A program made the translations under genes and the position numbers. Below, piece by piece: positions 6,048 to 57,842 of a DNA stretch of 64,000 nucleotides (position 1 is the first letter of the stretch; the number at the start of each line of letters is the position of its first letter). Source of the stretch: Allobrachymonas denitrificans DSM 15123 (GTDB taxonomy: Bacteria; Pseudomonadota; Gammaproteobacteria; Burkholderiales; Burkholderiaceae_C). The notes under the pieces are model-generated. The model made no database searches. It was not told the DNA's origin and was given only the letters and a program-made list of their open reading frames with translations. The DNA lies in NCBI RefSeq assembly GCF_900110225.1, contig NZ_FOCW01000001.1:1-64000 (forward strand), given 5' to 3'.

Positions 6048-7267
6048 TGCAGGATGCGGCAACTACGGCAGCCCCGGCGCTGCATACCGTCCGTTCTGCT
6101 GCGGATACCGACAGCCTGCACACCACGCTGGGCGTGCTCGGCGGCGGCCAGCTGGGCCGCATGCTGGTGCATGCCGCGCAGCGCATGGGCTATGCCACCG
6201 TGGTGCTGGATCCGGCGCCGGACAGCCCCGCCGGCCAGGCCAGCCACAACCAGATCGTGGCCGCCTACGACGACCAGACCGGCTGGGACCAGCTGGCCGA
6301 GGCCTGCGACGGCCTGACCACCGAATTCGAGAACGTGCCCGCGGCCGCGCTGGAGTATCTGGCTGCGCGCAAGCCGGTGTCGCCCCCGGCACAGGCCGTG
6401 GCCAAGGCGCAGGACCGCATCGAGGAAAAGCGCCACTTCACCGCCTGCGGCGTGCGCTGCGCGCCTTGGCTGGCGGTGCAGACCGAAGCGGATCTGGAAG
6501 CGGCCGCTGCGTTGCTGCCCGGCATCCTCAAGACCGCGCGCATGGGCTATGACGGCAAGGGCCAGGCCGTGTGCCACACTGCCGACGAACTGCGCCAGGC
6601 CTGGAGCAACATGGGCCGCGTGGCTTGCGTGCTGGAGCAGAAGCTGGCGCTGGCGCTGGAGTGCTCGGTGATCGTCGCGCGTGGCGCTGACGGCCATATC
6701 GTCAACTTCCAGCCGCAGCGCAATGTGCACCACGGCGGCATTCTGGCCACCACCTACGCGTTTGAAGGTGCCGTGCCCGTGGCGCTGTCCGACGCTCTGG
6801 TCGAGGCCACGCGTCGCATCGCCGAGGGGCTGGAATACGTGGGCGTGCTCTGCGTCGAATACTTCGTGCTGCAGGACGGCAGCTGGGTGGTGAACGAGAT
6901 GGCACCGCGCCCGCACAACAGCGGCCACTACACCATTGATGCCTGCGAGCACAGCCAGTTCGACCTGCAGGTGCGCACCACCATGAACCTGCCGCTGGTG
7001 CAGCCGCGCCACCATAGCCCCTCCATCATGCTCAACCTGCTGGGTGATGCCTGGTACCGCCATGGCGAGCGCATCATCCCGCCGTGGGAGGCGATCCAGC
7101 AACTCCCGGGCGTGCAGCTGCACCTGTACGGCAAGCAGGACGTGAAGCCGGGCCGCAAGATGGGCCATGTGACGCTGACGGCTGCTACCGTGGATGAGTT
7201 GCAGGACAAGGCAGCCCGGGTCGCCGGGCTGCTGCATCTGCCGTTCGAACGGCTGGATGTGGCGTGA
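6047..7267 (+). CDS. purK: 5-(carboxyamino)imidazole ribonucleotide synthase PurK
   Basis: The 406-residue ATP-grasp enzyme makes N5-CAIR from AIR, bicarbonate and ATP, supplying PurE. Visible motifs are LGVLGGGQLGRML near residue 28, TTEFENVP, KTARMGYDGKGQ, and VNEMAPRPHNSGHYTIDAC, all in PurK order. The N-terminus carries about 25 extra residues before the core. The ATG overlaps the purE stop codon. The reading frame is open far upstream of 6047 but without similarity, so the overlap start is preferred. Confidence 0.97.
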   Translation: MQDAATTAAPALHTVRSAADTDSLHTTLGVLGGGQLGRMLVHAAQRMGYATVVLDPAPDSPAGQASHNQIVAAYDDQTGWDQLAEACDGLTTEFENVPAAALEYLAARKPVSPPAQAVAKAQDRIEEKRHFTACGVRCAPWLAVQTEADLEAAAALLPGILKTARMGYDGKGQAVCHTADELRQAWSNMGRVACVLEQKLALALECSVIVARGADGHIVNFQPQRNVHHGGILATTYAFEGAVPVALSDALVEATRRIAEGLEYVGVLCVEYFVLQDGSWVVNEMAPRPHNSGHYTIDACEHSQFDLQVRTTMNLPLVQPRHHSPSIMLNLLGDAWYRHGERIIPPWEAIQQLPGVQLHLYGKQDVKPGRKMGHVTLTAATVDELQDKAARVAGLLHLPFERLDVA

Positions 7268-37090: not shown

Positions 37091-37229
37091 GGGACGGCCG
37101 CCTCCTTGGCGGCTCGACGCGGCGGTGTCTGACACGAAGGCGTCTGCCACCCGTGCTACAACAGCTGTTCCTGTTCTCCGGAGGCTTGTCTGTGGCTCCG
37201 GGGCGGCCAACGCACAAGGGGGAGGCACA

Positions 37230-39053
37230 GTGGAGACTCCGTGGAGAGCGCAGGCGCAGCAGCGCTGTCTGCAGCGGACGCTGGTCGCCATGATGCGCGA
37301 AGCGCTGCTGCCACAAATCCGCACCATGCAGGAGGGTGGAGCCTCGTGGCCGCTGGATGGACAACGCACCCTGCTGCTGGAGTGTCAGGGGGGCGAACCC
37401 GTCTGTGACAACCTGTGGCAAGACATGGGGGAATTGCGCTGTCGCGGGCTTGGTACAGAAATTGTGATCATCGAGACTGCGCCCCAGTTGCTGCGCCTGA
37501 TTGCACTGACCCATGCGGCTATCGATGCGCCGGCCGTGGAGCGCCTCGTGCGGGAACTCGAAAACAGTGTGGCCAATGATGCGCTTGCCATGGCCTACCG
37601 CGAAGCCTGGGGGCGGCAACTGAAGCTGGAACATGCAGCAGGTTCGCCAGAGGGCTTTCTTGGTGTGGTGCGCGGGATGGCGCCGGCAGCCGGCCTGCTG
37701 TTGCTCGAGCAGTGGGGAGCCCAAGGCCATCCCACGCACCCGACGCACAAGGCCAAGCTGGGCATGAGCGAGGCCGAGGTCGTGGCCTACTCCCCGGAGT
37801 TCGGTGCCCGTCTGCGTCTCGTGCTGGCAGCGATCCGCCGTGACTGCCTCAACGTGTCGCTGGGGCTCAGTATTCCCGATTACGTGGACTGGTTTGCCGA
37901 GCAATGGCCGCAGATCGCCCGCGACTGGCGGGCGGCGCTGGTCTTGCGCGGCATGGAGGATTCCGACTGGCTGCCCTTGCCGCTGCACCCCTGGCAGGCG
38001 GCCAACAGCCTGCCCCTGCGCTTCGCCAGCCTGCTGGAGCAGGGCGCACTGGTGCTGCTGGACGAGGTGCAGTGGCCGGCCGCGCCAACCATGTCGTTCC
38101 GCACCATGAGCTGCGAGCAGGGGGAGACCCTGCCCCACATCAAGCTGCCGGTGTCGCTGTGGCTGACCTCCGCCGAACGCACGGTGTCACCCAAATCCAC
38201 CGTGATGGGGCCGCGCCTGACCGCACTGCTGCGCGAGGTGCTGGCGCGGGAGGCCGGATTACGGCAGAAGCTGGACATCGTGGACGAACTGGTGGGGCTG
38301 CATTACCGCCATCCTGAAGGGGATGACGACATCGCGAGGCATCTCAGCGTGCTGTTTCGCCGCCATCCCGCTTCGCTTGTGCAGGCAGGCGAACTGGCAG
38401 TGCCGGTTGGGGCCCTGTTCGCCCCATCACCCTTCCATGGCCGGCTGCTGGTGACGGATGCGGTGGCGCAGGCCTTTGGCGACCACGGCGAGGGGGCGCT
38501 CGCGTTCTATGCCGGCTATCTGGACATGGCACTGCAGGCGGTGCTGCAACCCTATCTCCAGTACGGCATCGCGCTGGAAGCGCATCAACAGAACAGTTTC
38601 GTCGTCCTCGATGCAATGTACCGGCCGGTGCGGCTGCTGGTACGGGATTTTGGCGATGTGCGTGTGCATGCGCCCACCTTGCAGGCGCAGGGCCTCACGC
38701 TGCAGCCCTATCGCCAAGGACTCACCCTGTACGAGGACAACGCGCCCGTGCGTGACAAGGTGATGCATGCCTTCCTGCTGTGCCACATGATCGAACTGGG
38801 GCTGGCGCTGGCGCACACTTATGGACAGCCTTCCCGACCCTATGTGGCGCTGTTGCGCAAGGGGCTGGAGAACCTGTTTGCGCAGTTGCAGCCAGAGGTT
38901 GATGCAGAGCGCTGGCAGGCCGAGCGCCAGGCCTTGCTGGAAGATCCCTGGCCGGCGAAATCCTTTCTGCGCATGCGGCTGAACAACAGCTCGGAGGATG
39001 TGGTGCTGCGCATGCCGAATCCGCTGCGGCTCACCGCCAGCGCTACCGCGTAG
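37230..39053 (+). CDS. IucA/IucC family NIS siderophore synthetase
   Basis: This protein of about 607 residues belongs to the NRPS-independent siderophore synthetases, which use ATP to join carboxylates with amines or alcohols. Visible marks are GHPTHPTHKAKLGM, LPLPLHPWQ, SFRTMS, LPHIKLPVSLWLTSAERTVSPKS and LEAHQQNSFVVL, then RDFGDVRVH in the ferric-siderophore-reductase-like C-terminal part. No other siderophore gene is nearby. The GTG at 37230 follows GGGGGAGG; the frame is open from a GTG at 37125. It is convergent with dnaA. Confidence 0.88.
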   Translation: METPWRAQAQQRCLQRTLVAMMREALLPQIRTMQEGGASWPLDGQRTLLLECQGGEPVCDNLWQDMGELRCRGLGTEIVIIETAPQLLRLIALTHAAIDAPAVERLVRELENSVANDALAMAYREAWGRQLKLEHAAGSPEGFLGVVRGMAPAAGLLLLEQWGAQGHPTHPTHKAKLGMSEAEVVAYSPEFGARLRLVLAAIRRDCLNVSLGLSIPDYVDWFAEQWPQIARDWRAALVLRGMEDSDWLPLPLHPWQAANSLPLRFASLLEQGALVLLDEVQWPAAPTMSFRTMSCEQGETLPHIKLPVSLWLTSAERTVSPKSTVMGPRLTALLREVLAREAGLRQKLDIVDELVGLHYRHPEGDDDIARHLSVLFRRHPASLVQAGELAVPVGALFAPSPFHGRLLVTDAVAQAFGDHGEGALAFYAGYLDMALQAVLQPYLQYGIALEAHQQNSFVVLDAMYRPVRLLVRDFGDVRVHAPTLQAQGLTLQPYRQGLTLYEDNAPVRDKVMHAFLLCHMIELGLALAHTYGQPSRPYVALLRKGLENLFAQLQPEVDAERWQAERQALLEDPWPAKSFLRMRLNNSSEDVVLRMPNPLRLTASATA

Positions 39054-39118
39054 CGGCTGGAAACACCGTCTGCTTCGGGATGAGCCCGGATGCCTTGCGG
39101 GCGCGGGACTGTGCTGCG

Positions 39119-40600
39119 TCAGCCCTTGATGGTCTGCTCCAGCACGTGCAACTGCTGGTTCAGGTCCGGATCGTTGGCGCGTTCACCGCCGATCTTGCGT
39201 ACCGCATGCAGCACCGTGGTGTGATCGCGCCCGCCGAACATCTCGCCGATCTCGGGCAGGCTCTTCTGCGTCATTTCCTTGGCCAGATACATGGCGATCT
39301 GGCGCGGACGGGCGATGTTGGCCGGGCGCTTCTTGCTGTGCATGTCGGCGACCTTGATCTTGTAAAAATCCGCCACCGTCTTCTGGATGTTTTCCACGCT
39401 GATCTGGCGGTTCTTGATCGACAGCAGGTCGCGCAGCGCCTCGCGCACCAGCTGGATGTCGATCGGGCGGCCGCTGAAGCGCGAATAGGCCAGGATGTTC
39501 TGCAACGCGCCTTCCAGTTCACGCACGTTGGCGCGCACGTTCTTGGCGACGAAAAAGGCCACGTCCTCGGGCAGCTCGCGGCCTTCGGCCTGCGCCTTGT
39601 TCATCAGGATGGCCACGCGCATTTCCAGCTCGGGCGGCTCGATCGCTACCGTCAGGCCGGAGTCGAAGCGCGACACCAGACGTTCGGTGATGTTGGCCAG
39701 CCCCTTGGGATAGGTGTCGCTGGTCATCACGATATGGCTGCGCTTGGACAGCAGCGCCTCGAAGGCGTTGAAGAATTCTTCCTGCGTCTTGTCCTTGCCG
39801 GCGAAGAACTGCACGTCGTCGATCATCAGCAGGTCGAGCGAGTGGTAGCGCGACTTGAATTCGTCGAAAGTCTTGCGCTGGTAGGACTTGACCACGTCCG
39901 ACACGAACTGTTCGGCATGGGTGTAGAGCACGCGGGCGTTGGGCTTGAGCTCGAGCAGCTTGTTGCCCACGGCCTGCAGCAGGTGCGTCTTGCCCAGGCC
40001 GACGCCGCCGTAGATGAACAGCGGGTTGTAGAGCTGACCCGGTGTGCTGGCCACATGCATGGCCGCGGCGCGCGCCATGCGGTTGGCGCTACCCTCCACC
40101 AGATTCTCGAAGGTGCGGGCCGGATCGAGCCGGGTGGCCTGCGGCTGCGGTTGTGCCGCGGCGACCGGATCGACGCTCTGCCAGATGTCGTGCTGGTAGG
40201 CGTTGCCGCCGTGAACGCCCTGGGGCGCAGCATGGAGGTTGCCATGGCGCGGATCGGACACGGAAGCGGGCGCTGCGGCCATCGCGGCGGCGCGCAGTGC
40301 GGTACGTGCCACGGCCGGGCGCGCCTGGCGCGCGGCAATCGTCAGCTCCAGCGTCACCGGCTGGTCGGCCAGCTGGTCGAGGATCTGCTGGATGCGCGGC
40401 AGGTATTGCGCGCGGATCCAGTCCAGCTTGAAGCGGTTCGCCACTTCCACCACCAGAGCCTCGCCCTGGGCGCGCGCCTGCAGCGGGCGGATCCAGGTGT
40501 TGAACTGCTGGGCAGGAACATCCTGGGCCAGCACATCCATGCAGGCCTGCCACAAGGCCGTATCGGGCACGCTGGCGGGTTGAAGGGCTTCGGCAGACAT
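39119..40600 (-). CDS. dnaA: Chromosomal replication initiator protein DnaA
   Basis: The 493-residue initiator has domain I ([26 protein letters not shown]), a variable proline/alanine-rich domain II (about 80-160), the AAA+ domain with Walker [14 protein letters not shown] and sensor [22 protein letters not shown], and domain IV with [15 protein letters not shown], which reads DnaA boxes. The ATG at 40600 (MSAEAL) begins family similarity. Unusually, dnaN does not follow; the siderophore synthetase is convergent instead. rpmH is divergent. Confidence 0.97.
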
Positions 40601-40779
40601 CAGAGGCAATGGGGGCGCAGAAAGGCGGAAAACAGGGGGAATCGGGGCGCTGCAGGCCGCCGGGCACGCAGCCGGCAGGCACGCTTGAACAGAATTGGCA
40701 GCGCGACCTTCCATTCTAGGCCAGGCGGCCCGATGGGTGGTATTTTTGCAGCCACATACGCGACTGGGGCAGTAAGTGA
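40601..40779. other. dnaA side of the dnaA-rpmH divergent gap
   Basis: In many bacteria this region carries the origin. Reading both strands from 40601 to 40955, I find no TTATNCACA-type DnaA box and no AT-rich 13-mer array. It is GC-rich, with no recognisable origin. It should hold the dnaA promoter, but no convincing -35/-10 pair was found on the minus strand. Confidence 0.5.
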
Positions 40780-40808
40780 TTGATCAAGCGCGAAATTTTT
40801 GTGATAAT
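40780..40808 (+). promoter_or_regulatory. Sigma-70 promoter of the rpmH operon
   Basis: TTGATC (40780-40785) and GATAAT (40803-40808) are spaced by exactly 17 bases. The predicted leader to the rpmH start is about 140 nt and contains a small inverted repeat (CCCG/CGGG) near 40819-40834. Confidence 0.7.
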
Positions 40809-40955
40809 CACGAGCTTTCCCGAAATTTTACGGGAGAACAGGGGCTGGGCAGGCTGCGCAAGCAGGGCTGCTGCGGGCTCGCCATGCACGATGTACGTGC
40901 CCGGCAGTGCTGCCACGCAGCCCCGACATAACAACACGACTCGAGGATTTTTCCC

Positions 40956-41090
40956 ATGAAACGCACCTACCAGCCTTCCAAAACCCGCCGCGCCCGTACC
41001 CACGGTTTCCTGGTCCGCATGAAGACCAAGGGCGGCCGCGCCGTCATCAACGCACGCCGCGCCAAGGGCCGCAAGCGTCTGGCTGTCTGA
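40956..41090 (+). CDS. rpmH: 50S ribosomal protein bL34
   Basis: The 44-residue protein [19 protein letters not shown]... is the complete, highly conserved and very basic bL34. It begins the rpmH-rnpA-yidD-yidC series and lies divergent from dnaA, as in most bacteria. Confidence 0.98.
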
Positions 41091-41163
41091 GCGCAGCCGG
41101 CCGGATTGCCGCCTTTCGGGGTTGCGTGATCCATTCGCCCGCCACGCCGCTGCGCCGCCGTTG

Positions 41164-41685
41164 ATGCAACGTCTGCAGAACAGCGCCCAGTTCCAGGCCG
41201 TGATGCAGGGCAGCATCGTGGGGCGTACGCCCCATTTTGTTTTGCATGCCCTGCACTGGCTGCCGACTCCGGATGACCATGCCGGCGCCGGCTTTGCCGC
41301 GTCCGGACAGCGCCCGCTGTTTCGTGCCGGCCGCCACTGCGGCGTGCTGGTGCCCAAGCGCTGGGCGCGCCGCGCGGTCACGCGCAGCACCATCAAGCGC
41401 CAGATGCGCGCCGTGGCCGCTGCGCACGCCGGGCAGATTCCGGAGCAGACCGCCGTGGTGATCCGCCTGCGCAGTGCCTTCGACCGCAAGCGTTTCATCA
41501 GCGCCACATCCGACGCCCTGCGCGTGGCGGTGCGTACCGAGCTGGAACAGCTGTTCTCCCGCGCCTGCTGGCAGGACCTGCGCCCTGTGGCCGGCGTGCC
41601 GCTGCACCCGGCGGGAGCCCGTGCCGCAAGCACGCCAAACCCGCCTGCCGCAACGCCTTCTGGCACAATGCGCGCTGCACCATGA
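41164..41685 (+). CDS. rnpA: Ribonuclease P protein component
   Basis: The 173-residue basic protein assists RNase P RNA in trimming tRNA 5' ends. The start MQRLQNSAQFQAVMQG is typical for this bacterial group. The arginine-rich helix reads KRWARRAVTRSTIKRQMRA, where the usual RNxxKR core has Ser in place of Asn. The C-terminal 30 residues are a low-complexity tail. An in-frame TTG at 41122 is an alternative start. Its TGA overlaps the yidD ATG. Confidence 0.93.
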   Translation: MQRLQNSAQFQAVMQGSIVGRTPHFVLHALHWLPTPDDHAGAGFAASGQRPLFRAGRHCGVLVPKRWARRAVTRSTIKRQMRAVAAAHAGQIPEQTAVVIRLRSAFDRKRFISATSDALRVAVRTELEQLFSRACWQDLRPVAGVPLHPAGARAASTPNPPAATPSGTMRAAP

Positions 41686-41990
41686 AACAGTTCCTCATCT
41701 CCGGCGTCAAGGCCTACCGACTGTTGCTCAGCCCCTGGCTGGGTTCGTCGTGCCGTTTCGAGCCGACCTGTTCCGCCTACGCGCTGCAGGCACTGGAACA
41801 GCATGGTGCGCTGGCGGGCAGCTACCTGATGGTGTCGCGCATCGCGCGCTGCCATCCCTGGTGCCAGGGCGGCTGTGACCCCGTCCCCGCCGAAAAACCG
41901 CGCCTGTTCAGCAGCCTGCTGACCAAGTCCGCGCCAAGGGACGCCGTCCCTTCCGACGACTCCCTGCCTTCAACCAAGCATTCTTCATGA
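41682..41990 (+). CDS. yidD: Membrane protein insertion efficiency factor YidD
   Basis: The 102-residue protein carries the YidD signature LSPWLGSSCRFEPTCSAYALQALEQHG and the cysteine-rich CHPWCQGGCDPVP. It is a small membrane-associated protein helping YidC-dependent insertion. It overlaps rnpA upstream and yidC downstream by 4 bases each, so the three are translated in series. Confidence 0.96.
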   Translation: MKQFLISGVKAYRLLLSPWLGSSCRFEPTCSAYALQALEQHGALAGSYLMVSRIARCHPWCQGGCDPVPAEKPRLFSSLLTKSAPRDAVPSDDSLPSTKHSS

Positions 41991-43633
41991 ACGATATCCG
42001 TCGCTCCATCCTGTGGGTCATCTTTGGCTTTGCGCTGATCCTGCTGTGGGACCAGTGGCAGGTCCATAACGGCCGTCCCGCCACCTTCTTCCCGAGCCAG
42101 GCGCCCGTGGTTGCCGCTTCCGGCGCTGCCAGCGGCGGGGTTCCCGCTGCCACGGCGGCGGCCAACGGCGCTTCTGCCGCTACAGCCAGCCCGGCCGCCG
42201 GCACGGTGCCGGCTGGCCAGCGCACCGAAGTCACCACCGACGTCTACAAGCTGACCTTCGACAGCAATGGCGGCTCGCTGGTGGGTGCGCAACTGCTCAA
42301 GTATCCGGAAGATTCCAAGAACGCCAAGAGCCAGCCTATCGTGCTGATGCAGGACACGCCCAGCCACCAGTATCTGGCACAGACCGGTCTGGCAGGTGGC
42401 AACCTGCCCAGCCATCTGACGCCCATGGCTCTGGTGACACCCGAGCGCACCCTGGCTGACGGTCAGAAGAGCATGCAGGTGCGCTTCGAATCCGAGCCCG
42501 TGGGTGGCGTGAAACTGGTCAAGACCTACACGCTGACGCGCGGCAGCTACGCCATCGGCGTGCAGCATGACGTGGTCAACACCGGCAGCGCCGCCGTGAC
42601 GCCGCAGCTGTACCAGCAGTTCGTGCGCGACGGCAGCAAGCAGGCCGGCAGCATGTTCTACTCCACCTTCACCGGCCCCGCTTTCTACAGTGAAGAAGGC
42701 AAGTACCAGAAGGTCGAATTCAGCGACGTGGACAAGGGCAAGGAACTGAAGTTCCAGCGCAATGCGCCGGACGGCTACGTGGCCATGGCCCAGCACTACT
42801 TCACCAGCGCCTGGCTGCCGCCGGAAGGCATGGCGCGCGAGAACTACGTGCGCAAGGTGGATCATCTGTACGCCGCCGGTCAGGTGTTCAACCTGGGCAG
42901 CATCGCTCCCGGTGCCACCAAGACCTTCACCAGCACGCTGTTCGTCGGCCCGCAGGACGAGAAGCTGATGAACGCCACCGCGCCCAACCTGGACCTGGTC
43001 AAGGACTACGGCTGGCTCACCATCCTGGCGCGTCCGCTGTACTGGCTACTGACCTTCCTGCACGGCTTCCTGCACAACTGGGGCTGGGCCATCGTCGGTC
43101 TGGTGGTGCTGCTCAAGGCTGCCTTCTACTGGCTGAACCACAAGGCCTACGCCAGCATGGCCAAGATGAAGGCCGTCAACCCCAAGGTGCAGGCCCTGCG
43201 CGAGCGCTACAAGGAAGAGCCGCAGAAGATGCAGCAGGAGATGATGCGCATCTACCGCGAGGAAAAGGTCAACCCGCTGGGCGGCTGCCTGCCGATTCTG
43301 GTGCAGATTCCGGTGTTCATTGCGCTGTACTGGGTGCTGCTGTCTAGCGTCGAGATGCGCGGCGCGCCGTGGATCCTGTGGGTGAAGGATCTGTCCACGC
43401 CCGACCCCTACTTCATCCTGCCGATCCTGATGACGGCATCCAGCCTGTTGCAGGTGTGGCTCAACCCCACGCCGCCGGACCCGATGCAGGCCAAGATGAT
43501 GTGGATCATGCCGCTGATGTTCAGCGTGATGTTCTTCTTCTTCCCGGCCGGCCTGGTGCTGTACTGGCTGACGAACAACATCCTGTCGATTGCACAGCAG
43601 TGGTTCATCAACAAGCGCCTCGGTGTGAACTGA
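41987..43633 (+). CDS. yidC: Membrane protein insertase YidC
   Basis: The 548-residue insertase has an N-terminal membrane helix, a large periplasmic beta-sandwich domain after a short Ala-rich linker, and a five-helix core. Core signatures are WGWAIVGLVVLLKAAFYWLNHKAYASMAKMKAVNPKV, the cytoplasmic hairpin KMQQEMMRIYREEKVNPLGGCLPILVQIPVFIALYWVL, and LVLYWLTNNILSIAQQW. mnmE, often next, lies 6.4 kb away behind a block on the opposite strand. Confidence 0.98.
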   Translation: MNDIRRSILWVIFGFALILLWDQWQVHNGRPATFFPSQAPVVAASGAASGGVPAATAAANGASAATASPAAGTVPAGQRTEVTTDVYKLTFDSNGGSLVGAQLLKYPEDSKNAKSQPIVLMQDTPSHQYLAQTGLAGGNLPSHLTPMALVTPERTLADGQKSMQVRFESEPVGGVKLVKTYTLTRGSYAIGVQHDVVNTGSAAVTPQLYQQFVRDGSKQAGSMFYSTFTGPAFYSEEGKYQKVEFSDVDKGKELKFQRNAPDGYVAMAQHYFTSAWLPPEGMARENYVRKVDHLYAAGQVFNLGSIAPGATKTFTSTLFVGPQDEKLMNATAPNLDLVKDYGWLTILARPLYWLLTFLHGFLHNWGWAIVGLVVLLKAAFYWLNHKAYASMAKMKAVNPKVQALRERYKEEPQKMQQEMMRIYREEKVNPLGGCLPILVQIPVFIALYWVLLSSVEMRGAPWILWVKDLSTPDPYFILPILMTASSLLQVWLNPTPPDPMQAKMMWIMPLMFSVMFFFFPAGLVLYWLTNNILSIAQQWFINKRLGVN

Positions 43634-45388: not shown

Positions 45389-48061
45389 TCATGGTGGCGG
45401 AGCGGCACGGGATGCTGGGGGTGGCTGGTCGGCACTGGCATGGGGCGCTCCGGGTATGGGGTTGAGAGGATCGGTCGCGGTTGCAGGCGTGCTTCCGGCA
45501 GTGGTGGTGCCTGAAGCTTCTGGCTGGGACGGATGGTGCGATGCTTCCGATGGCGATGGCGATGGCGATGGCGATGGCGATGGCGATGGCGATGGCGATG
45601 GCACTTGTACCTGCGCCTCCACGACAGCTCTGGCAAAGGCGCCCAGGCGTCTCACGGCCTGCCGTGCCGACGCCAGCTGGAAGGCCTGCAACTGGAACAC
45701 GTGCCAACGATTGGCGTACTGTTCATACTGGCACGGTACGCCATCGCGCTGTGCCTGCTGCGCCAGCCGCTGGGCATCGGAGAGCAGCAATTCGTCTTCG
45801 CCGACTTGCAGACAGATCGGCGGAAAACCCTGCAGTCCGGCTTCCAGCGGGCGGTGATCCAGCGCATCGGCCGGGCAGGCATACCAGCGCACGGCCTGCT
45901 CCAGCCAGCCGGGGCGCAGCATCGGGTCACGCGCGACGTGGGTCTGCATGCTGGCGCCAGACAGCGCAGGATCGACCACCGGCGACAGCAGCATCAGGCC
46001 GGCAGGCAGGGCATCGCCCCGGGCGCGCAGGCGCAACAGCAGGGCGAGGGCCAGCATGCCGCCGGCAGAGTCACCGGCCACCACGATTTGCTGTGCAGGC
46101 AGTCCCTGGGCACGCAGGGCATCCCAGGCAGCGAGCGCATCCTCCAGCGCGGCGGGATAGGGGTGCTCCGGAGCCAGGCGGTAATCCAGCATCCAGGTCG
46201 CCAGGCCGGAATGGGCGGCGAGGCGGCTGCCGATGCTGCGGTGCGAGTCGGGGCCGCCCAGGCAGAAGGCGCCGCCGTGCAGATAGAGCAGCGCTCCCGG
46301 AACGGCATTGCGGCGCGGTGTCAGGCATTCGGCTGGCACGTTGCCCAAGGTTGTCCGGGTGCGCGTGTTGCCGCGCACGCCGGGCGTGAGCGGGCCCATC
46401 AGGGCGACGACGCGCCGCTGAAAACCGATGTCGTGCGGCGGGCCGATCAGCTGGCGGAAAGCCAGGCGCAGAAACCCGCGCAGAAAGCGCGCATGCAGGG
46501 TCTCAAACGGGATGCCGGGCTGCAGCACCCGCTCCGCGTGGGGAAGGCCGGCGAGCGGCTCGGTGAAGCGGTAGGCCTGCAGGCCGGACCAGCGCGTGCG
46601 CCAGCGATAGCTCAGGGTGAAGCCGGGCCAGTTGCTGCTGTTGCGGCCCTTGGCATCCAGATACCAGCTCTGGCAGCCCTGCCAGACGGTGTGCTGCAGG
46701 GCCTGCTGCACCTGCCGGTCCTGCTGGCGATAGGGGTGCGGATCGACTTCCACGCTGCTGGCGCCGCTGCGCCGCAAGGCTGCCAGACAGCGCATCACAT
46801 GCGCGATCTGGCTTTCCAGCATGTAGACGATGGAGTTGTGACCCAGATTGGTGTTGGGGCCATACAGCATGAAGAAGTTGGGAAAACCCGGCACGGTCAT
46901 GCCGAGATAGGCGCTGGCCCCTTCGCGCCAGACGGCGTCGAGGTCGATGCCATCGCGTCCGGTAATGCGCATCGGCGCCAGAAACTCGGTGGCGGCAAAG
47001 CCGGTGCCGTACACCAGCACATCGGCGGGGTGCAGCGTGCCGTCTTCGGTTTCCACACCGTCCGGATGGATGCGGCGGATCGGTGTGGTGACCAGCGCGA
47101 CGTTGGGCCGCGCCATGGTGGCCAGGTAGTCACTGGAGAGCAGGATGCGCTTGCAGCCGATCGGATAGTCCGGCGTGAGCCGGGCACGCAGGGCGGGATC
47201 GGCCACCTGTTTGCGCAGCATGTGCCGGAACGGGCGTCCCACCGCAGGCTGCATCAGGCCCTTGAAGCGGGTAAAGGCGAGCGCGCGGGCCTCGTACTGC
47301 AGGTAGATTTTCAGGCGGTGCAGCCGCATGCGCCAGGGCTGACTGGCAAAGCGTGTCTGCTCGTCGGCGCTGTAGGCGCGATCGGGGCGCGGCAGGATGT
47401 AGGCGGGGGAACGCTGGAATACGCTCAGGTGCGCCACTTGCGGAGCGATTGCCGGCACGAACTGGATGGCAGAAGCGCCGGTGCCGATCACGGCCACGCG
47501 CTTGCCCTGCAGATCGCAGCCGTGATCCCAGCGTGCGGAATGGAAGGCGGGGCCGCGGAAACTCTCCAGGCCGTCGATGCGTGGCAGGGCGGGGCGGCTG
47601 AGCTGGCCGGTGGCGGTGATCAGGATGCGGGTGGTCAGCGCCTCTCCGCTGACCAGGGTGACCTGCCACAGCTGGGCGGCATCGTCGAAGCGGGCTTCGC
47701 GCACTTCGGCGCCAAACCGGATGTGCGGCAACAACTGGTACTTGCGGGCGCAGTGCTGCAGGTAGGCGAGGATTTCGTCCTGCCGGGCAAAGCTGCGCGA
47801 CCAGTTCGGGTTGGGCTCGAACGAGAAGGAGTACAGGTGCGAGGGCACGTCGCAGGCGGCACCGGGGTAGCTGTTGTCGCGCCAGACGCCGCCCACGTCG
47901 TTTGCCTTTTCCAGCAGCAGGAAGTCGGTGATGCCCTGTTTGCGCAGTGCGATCGCCATGCCCAGGCCGCCGAAGCCGCTGCCGATGATGAGGGCGGAGA
48001 GCGGGGGCGCTTTCTTCCCCGCCATGGGCGGCAGCGGGGTGAGCTCAGGCGGTGTCGGCAT
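45389..48061 (-). CDS. Fusion: Baeyer-Villiger-type flavin monooxygenase + HSL-family esterase
   Basis: The 890-residue protein joins two enzymes. Residues about 20-520 form a flavin monooxygenase with GSGFGG (27-32), the Baeyer-Villiger-type fingerprint FRGPAFHSARW (168-178), and a second GTGASA (193-198). Residues about 560-815 form an alpha/beta hydrolase of the hormone-sensitive-lipase family: oxyanion motif HGGA (595-598), nucleophile GDSAG (Ser665), likely Asp756 and His787. A ketone could thus be turned to an ester and split on one polypeptide. A Pro-Ser tail (821-838) comes from a hexanucleotide repeat, followed by about 50 low-complexity residues. It overlaps the GMC gene by 17 bases. 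The substrate is unknown. Confidence 0.9.
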   Translation of the reverse strand: MPTPPELTPLPPMAGKKAPPLSALIIGSGFGGLGMAIALRKQGITDFLLLEKANDVGGVWRDNSYPGAACDVPSHLYSFSFEPNPNWSRSFARQDEILAYLQHCARKYQLLPHIRFGAEVREARFDDAAQLWQVTLVSGEALTTRILITATGQLSRPALPRIDGLESFRGPAFHSARWDHGCDLQGKRVAVIGTGASAIQFVPAIAPQVAHLSVFQRSPAYILPRPDRAYSADEQTRFASQPWRMRLHRLKIYLQYEARALAFTRFKGLMQPAVGRPFRHMLRKQVADPALRARLTPDYPIGCKRILLSSDYLATMARPNVALVTTPIRRIHPDGVETEDGTLHPADVLVYGTGFAATEFLAPMRITGRDGIDLDAVWREGASAYLGMTVPGFPNFFMLYGPNTNLGHNSIVYMLESQIAHVMRCLAALRRSGASSVEVDPHPYRQQDRQVQQALQHTVWQGCQSWYLDAKGRNSSNWPGFTLSYRWRTRWSGLQAYRFTEPLAGLPHAERVLQPGIPFETLHARFLRGFLRLAFRQLIGPPHDIGFQRRVVALMGPLTPGVRGNTRTRTTLGNVPAECLTPRRNAVPGALLYLHGGAFCLGGPDSHRSIGSRLAAHSGLATWMLDYRLAPEHPYPAALEDALAAWDALRAQGLPAQQIVVAGDSAGGMLALALLLRLRARGDALPAGLMLLSPVVDPALSGASMQTHVARDPMLRPGWLEQAVRWYACPADALDHRPLEAGLQGFPPICLQVGEDELLLSDAQRLAQQAQRDGVPCQYEQYANRWHVFQLQAFQLASARQAVRRLGAFARAVVEAQVQVPSPSPSPSPSPSPSPSPSEASHHPSQPEASGTTTAGSTPATATDPLNPIPGAPHASADQPPPASRAAPPP
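45549..45602. repeat. Hexanucleotide tandem repeat (GATGGC)9 in the fusion gene
   Basis: Nine perfect copies of GATGGC run from 45549 to 45602 and encode nine Pro-Ser pairs on the minus strand. Since the unit is two codons, copy changes would lengthen or shorten the tail without breaking the frame. Confidence 0.97.
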
Positions 48062-54907: not shown

Positions 54908-56101
54908 ATGACTCTCAACACCAACGATCCCGTCATCCTCTCCGCCGTGCGCACGCCCTTCGGCAAGCGCAAGGGCGCCCTGCGCGAGACGCGCCCCGAT
55001 GCCCTGCTGGCCGGCATCCTGCAGCAGGCGCTCACGCGCTCCGCTGTGCCTGCCGGCCAGATCGGCGATGTGATTGCCGGCTGTGTCAGCCAGGCCGGTG
55101 AGCAGGGCGCCAACATCGCGCGCCAGGCGGTGCTGCTGGCCGGCCTGCCCGAAACCGTACCGGGCGTGAGCCTGAACCGCATGTGCGGATCCAGCCAGTA
55201 TGCGGTGCATGCGGCAGCACAGGCCATTGCTGCGGGCGATCTGGACTTTGCCATCGGCTGCGGCGTTGAAAGCATGAGCCGTGTGCCCATGTTCCTCGAC
55301 CTGACGCTGGGCCGGCACGATTTCACCGGATTCGACAACCTGCACCCGCGCATCCTCGAGCGCTTCGCCATTCCGCATCAGGTGGAAAGTGCGGAACTGA
55401 TTGCCGAGCGCTGGCAGCTCAGCCGCGCCGATTGCGATGCCTTCGCCATCGAAAGCCACCGCCGCGCCCATGCCGCGCGCGAGGCGGGCCTGCATCAGGA
55501 AATCGCTGCAGTGCCAGGCGTGGACAAGGACGGCAACCCCCTGCAGCTTGACCACGACGAAGGCGTGCGTGCCGTGATCGACCAGGAACGCATGGCTGGC
55601 ATGCAGCCGGTGTTCCGCAGCATGGAGCAGGGCGTGGTGACGGCAGCCAATGCCAGCCAGATGTCCGACGGTGCTTCTGCCGTGGTGCTGGCCAGCAGCG
55701 CGGCCGCCGCCGCGAACGGCCTCAAGCCCCGCGCCTGCTTCCGTGCCCGCGTGGTGGTCGGCTCCGATCCCGTACTGCAACTGACCGGCGTGATCCCGGC
55801 CACCCATGCGGCGCTGAAGCAGGCCGGACTCAGTCTGGCCGACATGGACTGGATCGAGGTGAACGAGGCCTTTGCCAGCGTGGCGCTGGCCTGGGCGCGC
55901 GAATTCAAGGCCGACATGGACAAGCTCAACCCCTGGGGCGGCGCCATCGCCCATGGCCATCCGTTGGGCGGCACCGGCGCCGGCCTGCTGGCCAAGATGC
56001 TGTCCGGGCTGGAGCATGTGGACGGCCGCTTTGGCCTGCAGGTCATGTGCATCGGCCACGGCATGGCCACCGCCACCATCCTGGAGCGCCTGCCCGCCTG
56101 A
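54908..56101 (+). CDS. Thiolase family acetyl-CoA C-acyltransferase
   Basis: The 397-residue thiolase cleaves 3-ketoacyl-CoA or joins acetyl-CoA units. The nucleophile is Cys93 in NRMCGSSQ, the late motifs are [24 protein letters not shown] and CIGHGMA. It lies in the acyl-CoA dehydrogenase operon, suggesting beta-oxidation of a particular acid. It could in principle also cleave acetoacetyl-CoA derived from acetone carboxylation, but that link is only a guess. A 184-base gap with repeats separates it from the ligase. Confidence 0.94.
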
Positions 56102-56182
56102 GCGCCAGCGCCTGAGTGAGCCGCTCCGCCACACCGCCACTATCCGACCAAACGTCCAAAGCCCAAAGCCCAAAGCCCAAAA

Positions 56183-56262
56183 CCACAGAGCCACAGAGCC
56201 ACAGAGCCACAGAGCCACAGAGCCACAGAGCCACAGAGCCACAGAGCCACAGAGCCACAGAG
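56183..56262. repeat. Octanucleotide tandem repeat (CCACAGAG)10
   Basis: Ten copies of CCACAGAG run from 56183 to 56262, ending 23 bases before the ligase GTG start. They are preceded at about 56156-56180 by three to four copies of a related CAAAGCC 7-mer. The tract lies between thiolase and ligase, outside both coding sequences. Confidence 0.97.
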
Positions 56263-56285
56263 CCAAAACTAGCCAGGAGACACCC

Positions 56286-57842
56286 GTGACCCACACCCTT
56301 TCCCCCGCCATCCGCCGCACCATCCGCAACACCCTGGGCGATGCCCTGCAGCGCGCCGTGCGCCGCTCCCCGAACAAGGACGCGCTGGTCTTCGGCGACC
56401 GCCGCTGGACCTACCAGGCGCTGAACCAGGCCGTCAACCGCGTCGCCAACGCCCTGCTGGCGCAGGGCCTGCAACAAGGCGATCGCGTGGCCGCCTACGG
56501 CAAGAACTCCGATGCCTACGTGCTGCTCTGGCTGGCCTGCAACCGTGCCGGACTGGTGCATGTGCCGGTCAACTTCGCCCTCACCGAGGGGGAACTGCGC
56601 TACATCGTCGAGCAATCCGGCGCCCGCGCGCTGATCCACGACATCAGCATGCAGGCCCATGTGGACCAGGTGCGCGCCAGCCTGAACTGCTCTGTCCATG
56701 GCACCTTCTACGGTGGCGAAGGTCTGGATGTGCTGGCCCTGGCGCAAGGCAACGGCCCCGCCGATGCCCCCGAACTGGATATCGACGAGAACGCCGTCTG
56801 CCAGATCCTCTACACCTCCGGCACCACGGCGGCCCCCAAGGGCGCGATGATGACGCACCGCTCGCTGCAGGCCGAATACGCCAGCTGCATTGCCGCGCTG
56901 GAACTGAACGCGAATGACCGCTCGCTGGCCTCGCTGCCGCTCTATCACTCGGCGCAGATGCATGTGTTCCTGATGCCGCACCTGCTGGTGGGCGCCACCA
57001 CCTTCCTGATTCCCGCGCCCACGCCCGATGCCTGCTTCGATGCCATCGCGCAGCACGGCATCACCTCCTTCTTCGCTCCGCCCACGGTCTGGATCGCGCT
57101 GCTGCGCCATCCCGGCTTTGCCGCGCACGACCTGTCCAGCCTGCACAAGGGCTACTACGGCGCGTCCATCATGCCGGTTCCGGTGCTGGAGGAACTGCGC
57201 CAGCGCATGCCGCGTGTGCGCCTGTTCAACTGCTATGGCCAGAGTGAAATCGCGCCGCTGGCCACGGTGCTGTCACCCGAGGAGCACGCCATCCAGCCCG
57301 CCTCCGCCGGCCGGCCGGTGCTCAACGTGGAAACCCGCGTGGTGGATGACCAGATGCAGGACATGCCGCTCGGCGAAATGGGCGAGATCGTGCACCGCTC
57401 CCCGCAGACCATGATCGGCTACTGGGACAAGCCCGAGCAGACCGAGGAGGCCTTCGAAGGCGGCTGGTTCCATTCCGGCGACATGGGCTATTTCGACCAG
57501 GACGGCTTTCTGTTCGTGGTTGATCGCGTCAAGGACATCATCAACACCGGCGGCGTGGTCGTCTCCAGCCGCGAGGTGGAAGAATGCCTGTTCACCCATC
57601 CAGCCGTGTCCGAAGTGGCGGTGATCGCGCTACCGGATGAGCGCTGGATCGAGGCGGTGACGGCGGTGGTGTGCCTGAAAGACGGTTTCAGTGCTAGCGA
57701 GGAGGAGCTGATTGCCTATGCCAAGGAGCGTATGGCGCACTTCAAGGTGCCCAAGAGCGTGCACTTCGTGGATGACCTGCCGCGCAGCACGGCGGGCAAG
57801 CTGCTCAAGCGGGAACTTCGCAAGCAGTTTGCGGAGGCCTGA
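56286..57842 (+). CDS. AMP-forming acyl-CoA synthetase
   Basis: The 518-residue ligase activates a carboxylic acid to its CoA ester. Motifs are YTSGTTAAPKGAMMTH, NCYGQSEIAPLA, GWFHSGDMGYFDQDGF, and the catalytic Lys in PRSTAGKLLKREL. It ends the ACAD-thiolase operon. The GTG start at 56286 follows AGGAG at proper spacing, though the frame is open far upstream through the repeat tract. The acid used is unknown; fatty acids are likely given the context. Confidence 0.94.
   Translation: MTHTLSPAIRRTIRNTLGDALQRAVRRSPNKDALVFGDRRWTYQALNQAVNRVANALLAQGLQQGDRVAAYGKNSDAYVLLWLACNRAGLVHVPVNFALTEGELRYIVEQSGARALIHDISMQAHVDQVRASLNCSVHGTFYGGEGLDVLALAQGNGPADAPELDIDENAVCQILYTSGTTAAPKGAMMTHRSLQAEYASCIAALELNANDRSLASLPLYHSAQMHVFLMPHLLVGATTFLIPAPTPDACFDAIAQHGITSFFAPPTVWIALLRHPGFAAHDLSSLHKGYYGASIMPVPVLEELRQRMPRVRLFNCYGQSEIAPLATVLSPEEHAIQPASAGRPVLNVETRVVDDQMQDMPLGEMGEIVHRSPQTMIGYWDKPEQTEEAFEGGWFHSGDMGYFDQDGFLFVVDRVKDIINTGGVVVSSREVEECLFTHPAVSEVAVIALPDERWIEAVTAVVCLKDGFSASEEELIAYAKERMAHFKVPKSVHFVDDLPRSTAGKLLKRELRKQFAEA

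Follow-up and report, generated by a model that had tools for sequence, protein, structure and literature searches.

In Allobrachymonas denitrificans DSM 15123, the opening 64 kb of contig C12 (the window, 64,000 nucleotides at its full length) contain dnaA, the gene of the chromosomal replication initiator, with neither dnaN nor DnaA boxes beside it. The replication origin (oriC) of this genus is very probably a module of about 200 bp on another contig, C15, on the 5' side of mnmG. The module is most likely the same oriC that lies in the dnaA-dnaN gap of relatives, displaced from that site, because a profile trained only on the dnaA-dnaN gaps of other genera matches the module as a single place. 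The window would then be the leftover of an ancestral origin cluster whose origin has moved away.

Genomes and profiles

The genome containing the window (G000) is a 2.71-Mb draft assembly of 21 contigs. It was compared within a set of nine genomes of the genus and 51 genomes of other genera, of which 36 (G000-G035) make up the family and 24 are order-level genomes. A near-complete genome of another species of the genus, G003, has a main contig of 2.71 Mb. Neither dnaA nor dnaN was found in G008, which is 71% complete, and the genus counts for these two genes are therefore based on n=8. Stretches around dnaA were taken from 13 of the 51 outside genomes, and 11 of them (all except G012 and G023) extend upstream of the gene. 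The best named match of the G000 DnaA is a Brachymonas sp. metagenome-assembled genome (MAG) at 75%, and in a DnaA tree it falls in a genus clade with 100/100 support; the genus name Brachymonas has reportedly been called illegitimate of late, with Allobrachymonas put forward in its place.

Two sequence profiles were used. Profile R1 was built on an alignment of the module with the dnaA-dnaN gaps of six relatives, and its matches inside the genus are partly circular because the genus contributed to it. Profile R2 was built from 16 dnaA-dnaN gaps, all from outside the genus, 10 of which had been picked up with R1.

A probably displaced origin module at mnmG

The module has the following position.

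C15:40277-40480, on the 5' side of mnmG: displaced oriC module (putative), about 200 bp, with boxes, spacer, trios and profile match

It contains three DnaA boxes (at most one mismatch) within 156 bp: CTATCCACA on the minus strand at 40277, TTATCCACA on the plus strand at 40305 and TTGTCCACA on the plus strand at 40424, giving an order of minus, 28 bp, plus, 119 bp, plus between box starts. The 119-bp spacing is also present in the dnaA-dnaN gaps of G010 and G025. The proximal box TTGTCCACA is followed by a 15-nt spacer and then by CTACTATCTACTACTA and TTTATATATA, with CTA-type DnaA-trios and an AT-rich stretch; the trios CTACTATCTACTACTA are read on the complementary strand. A whole-genome search with the consensus box TTWTNCACA gave 36 matches versus 30 in the control and carries no signal alone, and clusters of boxes were therefore used instead. 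Of the 21 boxes in the 143.5 kb of C15, nowhere else do three fall within 500 bp, and its counterpart in G003 is the sole such cluster in 380 kb (33 boxes). The box-spacer-trio pattern, which was composed after the module had been seen, occurs once on C15 and is absent from the window and the C12 stretches scanned, and the AT-rich 40-mer of the module ranks in the top 0.02% of C15.

Alignment of the module with the dnaA-dnaN gaps of the six relatives shows both boxes equally spaced, together with common AGTTGTT, CTTGAT and AAAA blocks and common trios. Searching with R2 gave exactly one match (E up to 0.1) in eight of the nine genus genomes, always to this module. The E-values are 9e-23 in G002, 3e-19 in G006, 6e-18 in G000, 1e-17 in G003 and 3.5e-15 in G007, with weaker matches in G004 (3e-12), G001 (3e-9) and G005 (1.4e-6). 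In these eight genomes the distance between the module and the start of the mnmG match (TIGR00136) is 0.1-1.5 kb, with the module on the 5' side of mnmG, and individual boxes vary among them. In G000 a short cysteine-rich frame with no Pfam match (L007:5815-6246, from 5926) is located between mnmG and the module, and the gene to the right of the module encodes a membrane protein with a Gly_transporter match (PF03458).

Outside the family, R1 matches are present in nine of the 24 order-level genomes and absent from the other 15. The best match is in the dnaA-dnaN gap in G038, G048, G049, G051, G052 and G056, where most matches are weak and incomplete (E 5e-8 to 1e-3); in G039, G042 and G054 it is elsewhere. 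The sequence comparisons point to the dnaA-dnaN gap as the ancestral place of the module, short of proof.

parS sites, contig order and GC skew

Four parS sites (up to two mismatches allowed) lie around the module on C15, at 37169, 38073, 38274 and 51056, and G003 has four at matching places; none was found in the window or the C12 stretches scanned. Close to the mnmG frame are genes for ParB (at 2.4 kb) and a ParA-type ATPase (at 1.0 kb). Both C15 and C12 align collinearly with G003, on which they are about 6.5 kb apart. This collinearity speaks against misassembly, and placing the contigs on G003 puts the module about 150 kb from dnaA.

The cumulative GC skew of a contiguous 380 kb of G003 has its minimum at 2.294 Mb, with a flat basin extending to about 2.345 Mb that includes the module (2.309 Mb) and excludes dnaA (2.158 Mb, on the slope). 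Along the G003 contig, taken as circular, skew samples between 0.9 and 2.34 Mb are negative or close to zero, with clearly negative values at 1.2-1.95 and 2.2 Mb; from 2.42 Mb across the contig end to 0.77 Mb they are positive, apart from one value of -0.010 at 2.65 Mb. A two-mean fit puts the switch at 2.363 Mb (95% block-bootstrap interval 2.293-2.404), and only 0.4% of the bootstrap draws are at or below 2.20 Mb. The skew thus disfavours dnaA and allows the module, without picking it out. In G000 itself, samples of C12 stay positive or close to zero up to 1.17 Mb, and those at 1.25 and 1.35 Mb are negative, a sign change that places the terminus roughly half a genome from C15:40 kb.

Several observations weigh against the module as origin of the genus. 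The fitted skew switch in G003 is 54 kb off the module, which lies near the lower edge of the interval, and the skew is weak. On C15 of G000 the minimum is at 46.6 kb rather than at 40.4 kb, although it is shallow (-316 versus -256 at the module). The dif pattern of Escherichia coli, with three mismatches allowed, was found in neither G000 nor G003 and gave one three-mismatch match in G002, so that the terminus is not anchored. Among the genus genomes, the 71%-complete G008 has no R2 match, the proximal box of G004 is degenerate (TTGTAAACA), and that of G007 falls outside the stretch fetched.

dnaA and its surroundings

The dnaA region of the window, and the two former cluster members beyond it, are arranged as follows.

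37125-39053, plus strand: IucA/IucC siderophore synthetase, convergent with dnaA, in the place of dnaN (PF04183, PF06276)
39054-39118: gap 3' of dnaA, the site of the dnaA-dnaN gap in other genera; no DnaA box
39119-40600, minus strand: dnaA, chromosomal replication initiator, open frame to 40714 (TIGR00362, PF00308, PF08299, PF11638)
40601-40955 (355 bp): dnaA-rpmH gap; no DnaA box at up to two mismatches and no oriC profile match
40780-40808, plus strand: sigma-70-like promoter (TTGATC-17 nt-GATAAT) that may drive rpmH; consensus match only
40956-41090, plus strand: rpmH, ribosomal protein L34, divergent from dnaA (PF00468, 81.9 bits)
41122-41685, plus strand: rnpA frame (PF00825)
41682-41990, plus strand: yidD (PF01809)
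41987-43633, plus strand: yidC (PF14849, PF02096)
43634-64000: remainder of the stretch now between dnaA and dnaN, dnaN being beyond the window
C12:65516-66709, plus strand: dnaN, separated from dnaA by 25 kb and lying 1.5 kb outside the window
C15:59138, minus strand: gyrB, on another contig than dnaA, at a distance of about 19 kb from the proposed oriC module

The initiator gene is full-length, with a TIGR00362 score of 557.9 bits versus a cut-off of 343.9, and probably starts at about 40600 (MSAEAL), since the DnaA_N domain begins at residue 53 of the long frame. There is just one other PF00308 match in G000, a weak one (E 7.5e-5) in a 237-aa frame. The first-pass annotation, made from the window alone, had remarked that dnaA is followed by a convergent siderophore synthetase instead of dnaN and that its flanks show no DnaA boxes, and it had suggested that the standard origin region was split or moved. 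The first two remarks hold, with dnaN located farther along C12, and the suggestion is supported in both its forms, the cluster being scattered and the module lying at mnmG.

The sequence TTATCCACA is absent from 40560-41100 and 38901-39200 with up to two mismatches on both strands, and a search for a degenerate box cluster at 40601-40955 found none. Such box matches occur 84 times per 64 kb in the window, so about 0.7 are expected per 541 bp; the zero at dnaA is therefore unremarkable alone, and it is the contrast with relatives that counts. All 11 outside genomes whose stretch extends upstream have two boxes close to the start of dnaA, a minus box followed by a plus box at a spacing of 49-61 bp; none of the eight genus genomes has such a pair. 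The AT content of the dnaA-rpmH gap is 0.40, R1 has no match in the window at E up to 10, and scans of the window for tRNA genes and Rfam families found nothing.

Break-up of the rpmH-dnaA-dnaN-gyrB cluster

In other genera the dnaA and dnaN domains adjoin on the same strand, 554-1034 bp apart, in 51 of 51 genomes, whereas G000 has neither dnaN directly after dnaA nor boxes in either gap. Within the genus the two genes are apart in all eight genomes in which both were found. They are 25 kb from each other in G000 and G003 and 116 kb in G002; in the other five dnaN is on a different contig, and no dnaN motif is present in the 0.9-2.0 kb after dnaA. The customary neighbours on the rpmH side, rnpA, yidD and yidC, are kept in G000. 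The rpmH gene adjoins dnaA in four of eight genus genomes (G000, G002, G003 and G006), and no rpmH was found with two motifs in the stretch around dnaA in G001, G004, G005 and G007; it was found in all 11 outside genomes reaching upstream of dnaA. The first of these motifs missed rpmH in G013 and G015, and the second found both and repeated the four genus negatives.

A different arrangement is seen in G004, where dnaN is still near gyrB on one contig (C77) and dnaA and oriC are on other contigs, possibly an intermediate of the cluster break-up. The genus genomes thus differ in which neighbours remain, rpmH at dnaA or dnaN near gyrB, and the cluster therefore probably came apart stepwise.

Modules across the family

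R1 matches were found in 34 of the 36 family genomes, the exceptions being G008 and G016, both less than 75% complete. The module is in the dnaA-dnaN gap in nine (G009, G010, G013, G014, G019, G022, G025, G027 and G034), near mnmG in the eight of this genus, and elsewhere in 17. Eleven of the 34 contain two or three strong, diverged modules, all of them among the 17 with the module elsewhere (G011, G012, G015, G018, G020, G021, G024, G026, G028, G030 and G035; the multi-module loci of these other Comamonadaceae are L215 to L227). Copies within a genome are 53-68% identical and, where they share a contig, are on one strand and 0.3-29 kb apart. Among 32 aligned full-length matches the first box is present in 31 and the second in 26 (at most one mismatch), and at least three CTA/CCA trios in 31; among the 24 copies carried by the eleven multi-copy genomes, the corresponding numbers are 23, 20 and 23. 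In G012, the one multi-module genome checked for skew (400 kb), the minimum is at 39.9 kb and corresponds to the first module (40.07 kb), not to dnaA (0.35 kb), although it is shallow (-1506 versus about -1315 at about -100 and -20 kb).

In 80 named dnaA loci a strong R1 match follows dnaA in 24 and a weak partial one in a single locus. Those with a match include nine of ten Polaromonas, both Limnohabitans, both Ramlibacter, Rubrivivax pictus and Caldimonas mangrovi, and there is none in any locus under the names Comamonas, Delftia, Acidovorax or Diaphorobacter. In an Aquabacterium MAG, dnaA is followed by two oriC modules in tandem (L060:6240-6426 and 6606-6801), possibly an early duplication step. 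On the DnaA tree (100 rows, 31 of them scored 'gap') at least 10 changes of origin place are counted, a rough count on a tree with long branches and unsettled bootstrap. For this count L049 was dropped for too little sequence after dnaA, and L070 (a cut match) and L053 (weak and partial, E 0.0016) were scored 'gap'.

Alternative explanations

That oriC is still at dnaA, with boxes too degenerate for a consensus search, is highly improbable. The retention of rpmH beside dnaA in half of the genus genomes is in its favour, but there is neither a box at up to two mismatches nor a profile match at E up to 10 in the region, the skew draws rarely fall as low as dnaA, and the neighbourhood of dnaA is inconstant, as the four genomes without rpmH there show; the G003 basin is not at dnaA. 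Slightly less probable still is an origin elsewhere on C12, either in an array at 417.2-418.9 kb or at a pair of boxes at 537.3 kb. The array has perfect boxes, and similar ones occur in G002, G003 and G006. Against it, the box-spacer-trio pattern and parS sites are absent from both C12 stretches (L005 and L006), the profile match is partial and weak (11.1 bits, E 0.022), and the three G003 samples taken at 1.65, 1.80 and 1.95 Mb all have negative skew, giving no switch there; both places were rejected as origins. An assembly artefact producing an only apparent separation of dnaA and dnaN could be suspected in a 21-contig draft, but we give it almost no weight, as the two genes are on one contig, G003 has the same 25-kb spacing and collinear flanks, and in G004, G005 and G006 dnaA is well inside a contig with no dnaN motif after it.

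A more serious alternative, although still an unlikely one, is a multi-copy origin in which the mnmG module is an old additional copy, the genus having lost the dnaA-dnaN copy and nothing having moved. It differs from displacement only in the route and not in the present place, and the confidence given to the two overlaps. The multi-module genomes in the family fit this explanation, as does the low identity of their copies, which are hence probably old, and G056, from another family, has a weak match in the gap plus one on another contig (E 1.2e-7 and 1.5e-5). However, no family genome has a gap copy plus another, all nine gap genomes giving a single match, and none of the 17 family genomes with the module elsewhere uses the place seen in this genus, the nearest being 4.3 kb from mnmG (G017). 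Tentatively, and with somewhat less than even confidence, the oriC of the Comamonadaceae may be a mobile module that left the gap several times and multiplied locally, with many chromosomes running on two or three diverged modules on one strand, 0.3-29 kb apart, and this genus representing an end state with a single surviving module near mnmG and a dismantled dnaA-dnaN-gyrB cluster.

The C12 array consists of four double DnaA-box units of the TGTGGAYAACTTTGTGSR type at C12:417222-418858 (L006:6222-7858), the last three about 360-390 bp apart. Judged by pattern, three-unit arrays are present in G002 (C11), G003 (1.789 Mb) and G006 (C278), and the single unit at C12:537324 (L005:7324) has possible counterparts in G003, G002 and G006. 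The array is more likely a datA/DARS-type DnaA-titration locus, about 0.5 Mb from the origin.

Proposed mode of action

From its anatomy we infer that DnaA would bind the box pair and the proximal box TTGTCCACA and then extend over the 15-nt spacer onto the trios CTACTATCTACTACTA, with the adjacent AT-rich stretch expected to melt. ParA and ParB, with the flanking parS sites, would segregate the new origins. The dnaA gene, having lost the box pair of its promoter, would act purely in trans, and box-based feedback on its transcription is probably gone. The module itself would descend from the one that many relatives have in their dnaA-dnaN gap. Its displacement probably began with a local duplication, after which the original copy was lost, since two or three diverged copies persist in other genera of the family. 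A recognisable copy so far from dnaA suggests that origins of replication in bacteria can be relocated in one piece.

Relationship to known origins

The closest counterpart is the dnaA-dnaN oriC of the relatives, which has the same order of box, about 110 bp, box, spacer, CTA trios and AT-rich stretch; the G000 module is instead 5' of mnmG, with dnaN and gyrB dispersed too. As in the gidA/mnmG-mioC type of E. coli, the proposed origin of the genus is near mnmG and apart from dnaA, but its sequence and box spacing are those of its own family, and the likeness of position looks convergent. Both gidA and mioC are named as oriC neighbours in E. coli and Yersinia in one account (PMC10225481).

Within the same order, chromosome 1 of Cupriavidus metallidurans CH34 is described as having a GC-skew switch about 90 kb from dnaA-dnaN-gyrB, adjoining a 213-nt region with three perfect boxes (PMC2864759). 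There dnaA-dnaN-gyrB is intact with boxes upstream of dnaA, whereas in this genus the cluster has come apart and dnaA has no boxes left. For the basal unwinding system a spacer peak around 10-13 is reported, from a search that allowed up to 16 (PMC8287927), and the predicted arrangement of the G000 module, with box TTGTCCACA, 15-nt spacer, trio repeats and AT-rich stretch, follows the same order.

Ralstonia pickettii, one of the Table 1 examples of putative double origins in Gao 2015, belongs to the same order. Four examples are given in that table, none of them from this family (PMC4403523). The likeness to these double origins, that is several oriC-like modules per chromosome, holds for the multi-module relatives only, in which the copies are homologous and, where a contig is shared, close together. 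No description of a relocation in Brachymonas or Comamonadaceae was found in the openly licensed literature, which is no proof of its being unpublished. Origins away from dnaA are already known; added to these here are a single homologous module whose move can be traced inside one family, a cluster that has broken up throughout a genus, and many relatives with several modules.

The old and new places of one module can thus be aligned inside one family, with apparent intermediates. These arrangements form a natural series in which to ask why the three elements dnaA, dnaN and oriC generally remain neighbours, and what follows when the boxes of dnaA are lost. In this genus, an origin assigned to dnaA would be misplaced by about 150 kb, and the multi-module relatives would be a test case for the simultaneous use of several origins.

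Other features of the window

A perfect 8-bp tandem repeat, CCACAGAG, is present in 10.4 copies at 56183-56265, just before the AMP-binding domain of the open reading frame (ORF) at 55872-57842. As the repeat unit is not divisible by three, this ORF could be phase-variable. The minus-strand ORF at 45389-48061 fuses a flavin-binding monooxygenase part to an alpha/beta-hydrolase part, and near its end has an SPSPSP stretch from a tandem repeat of CGATGG (9.2 copies, 45548-45602).
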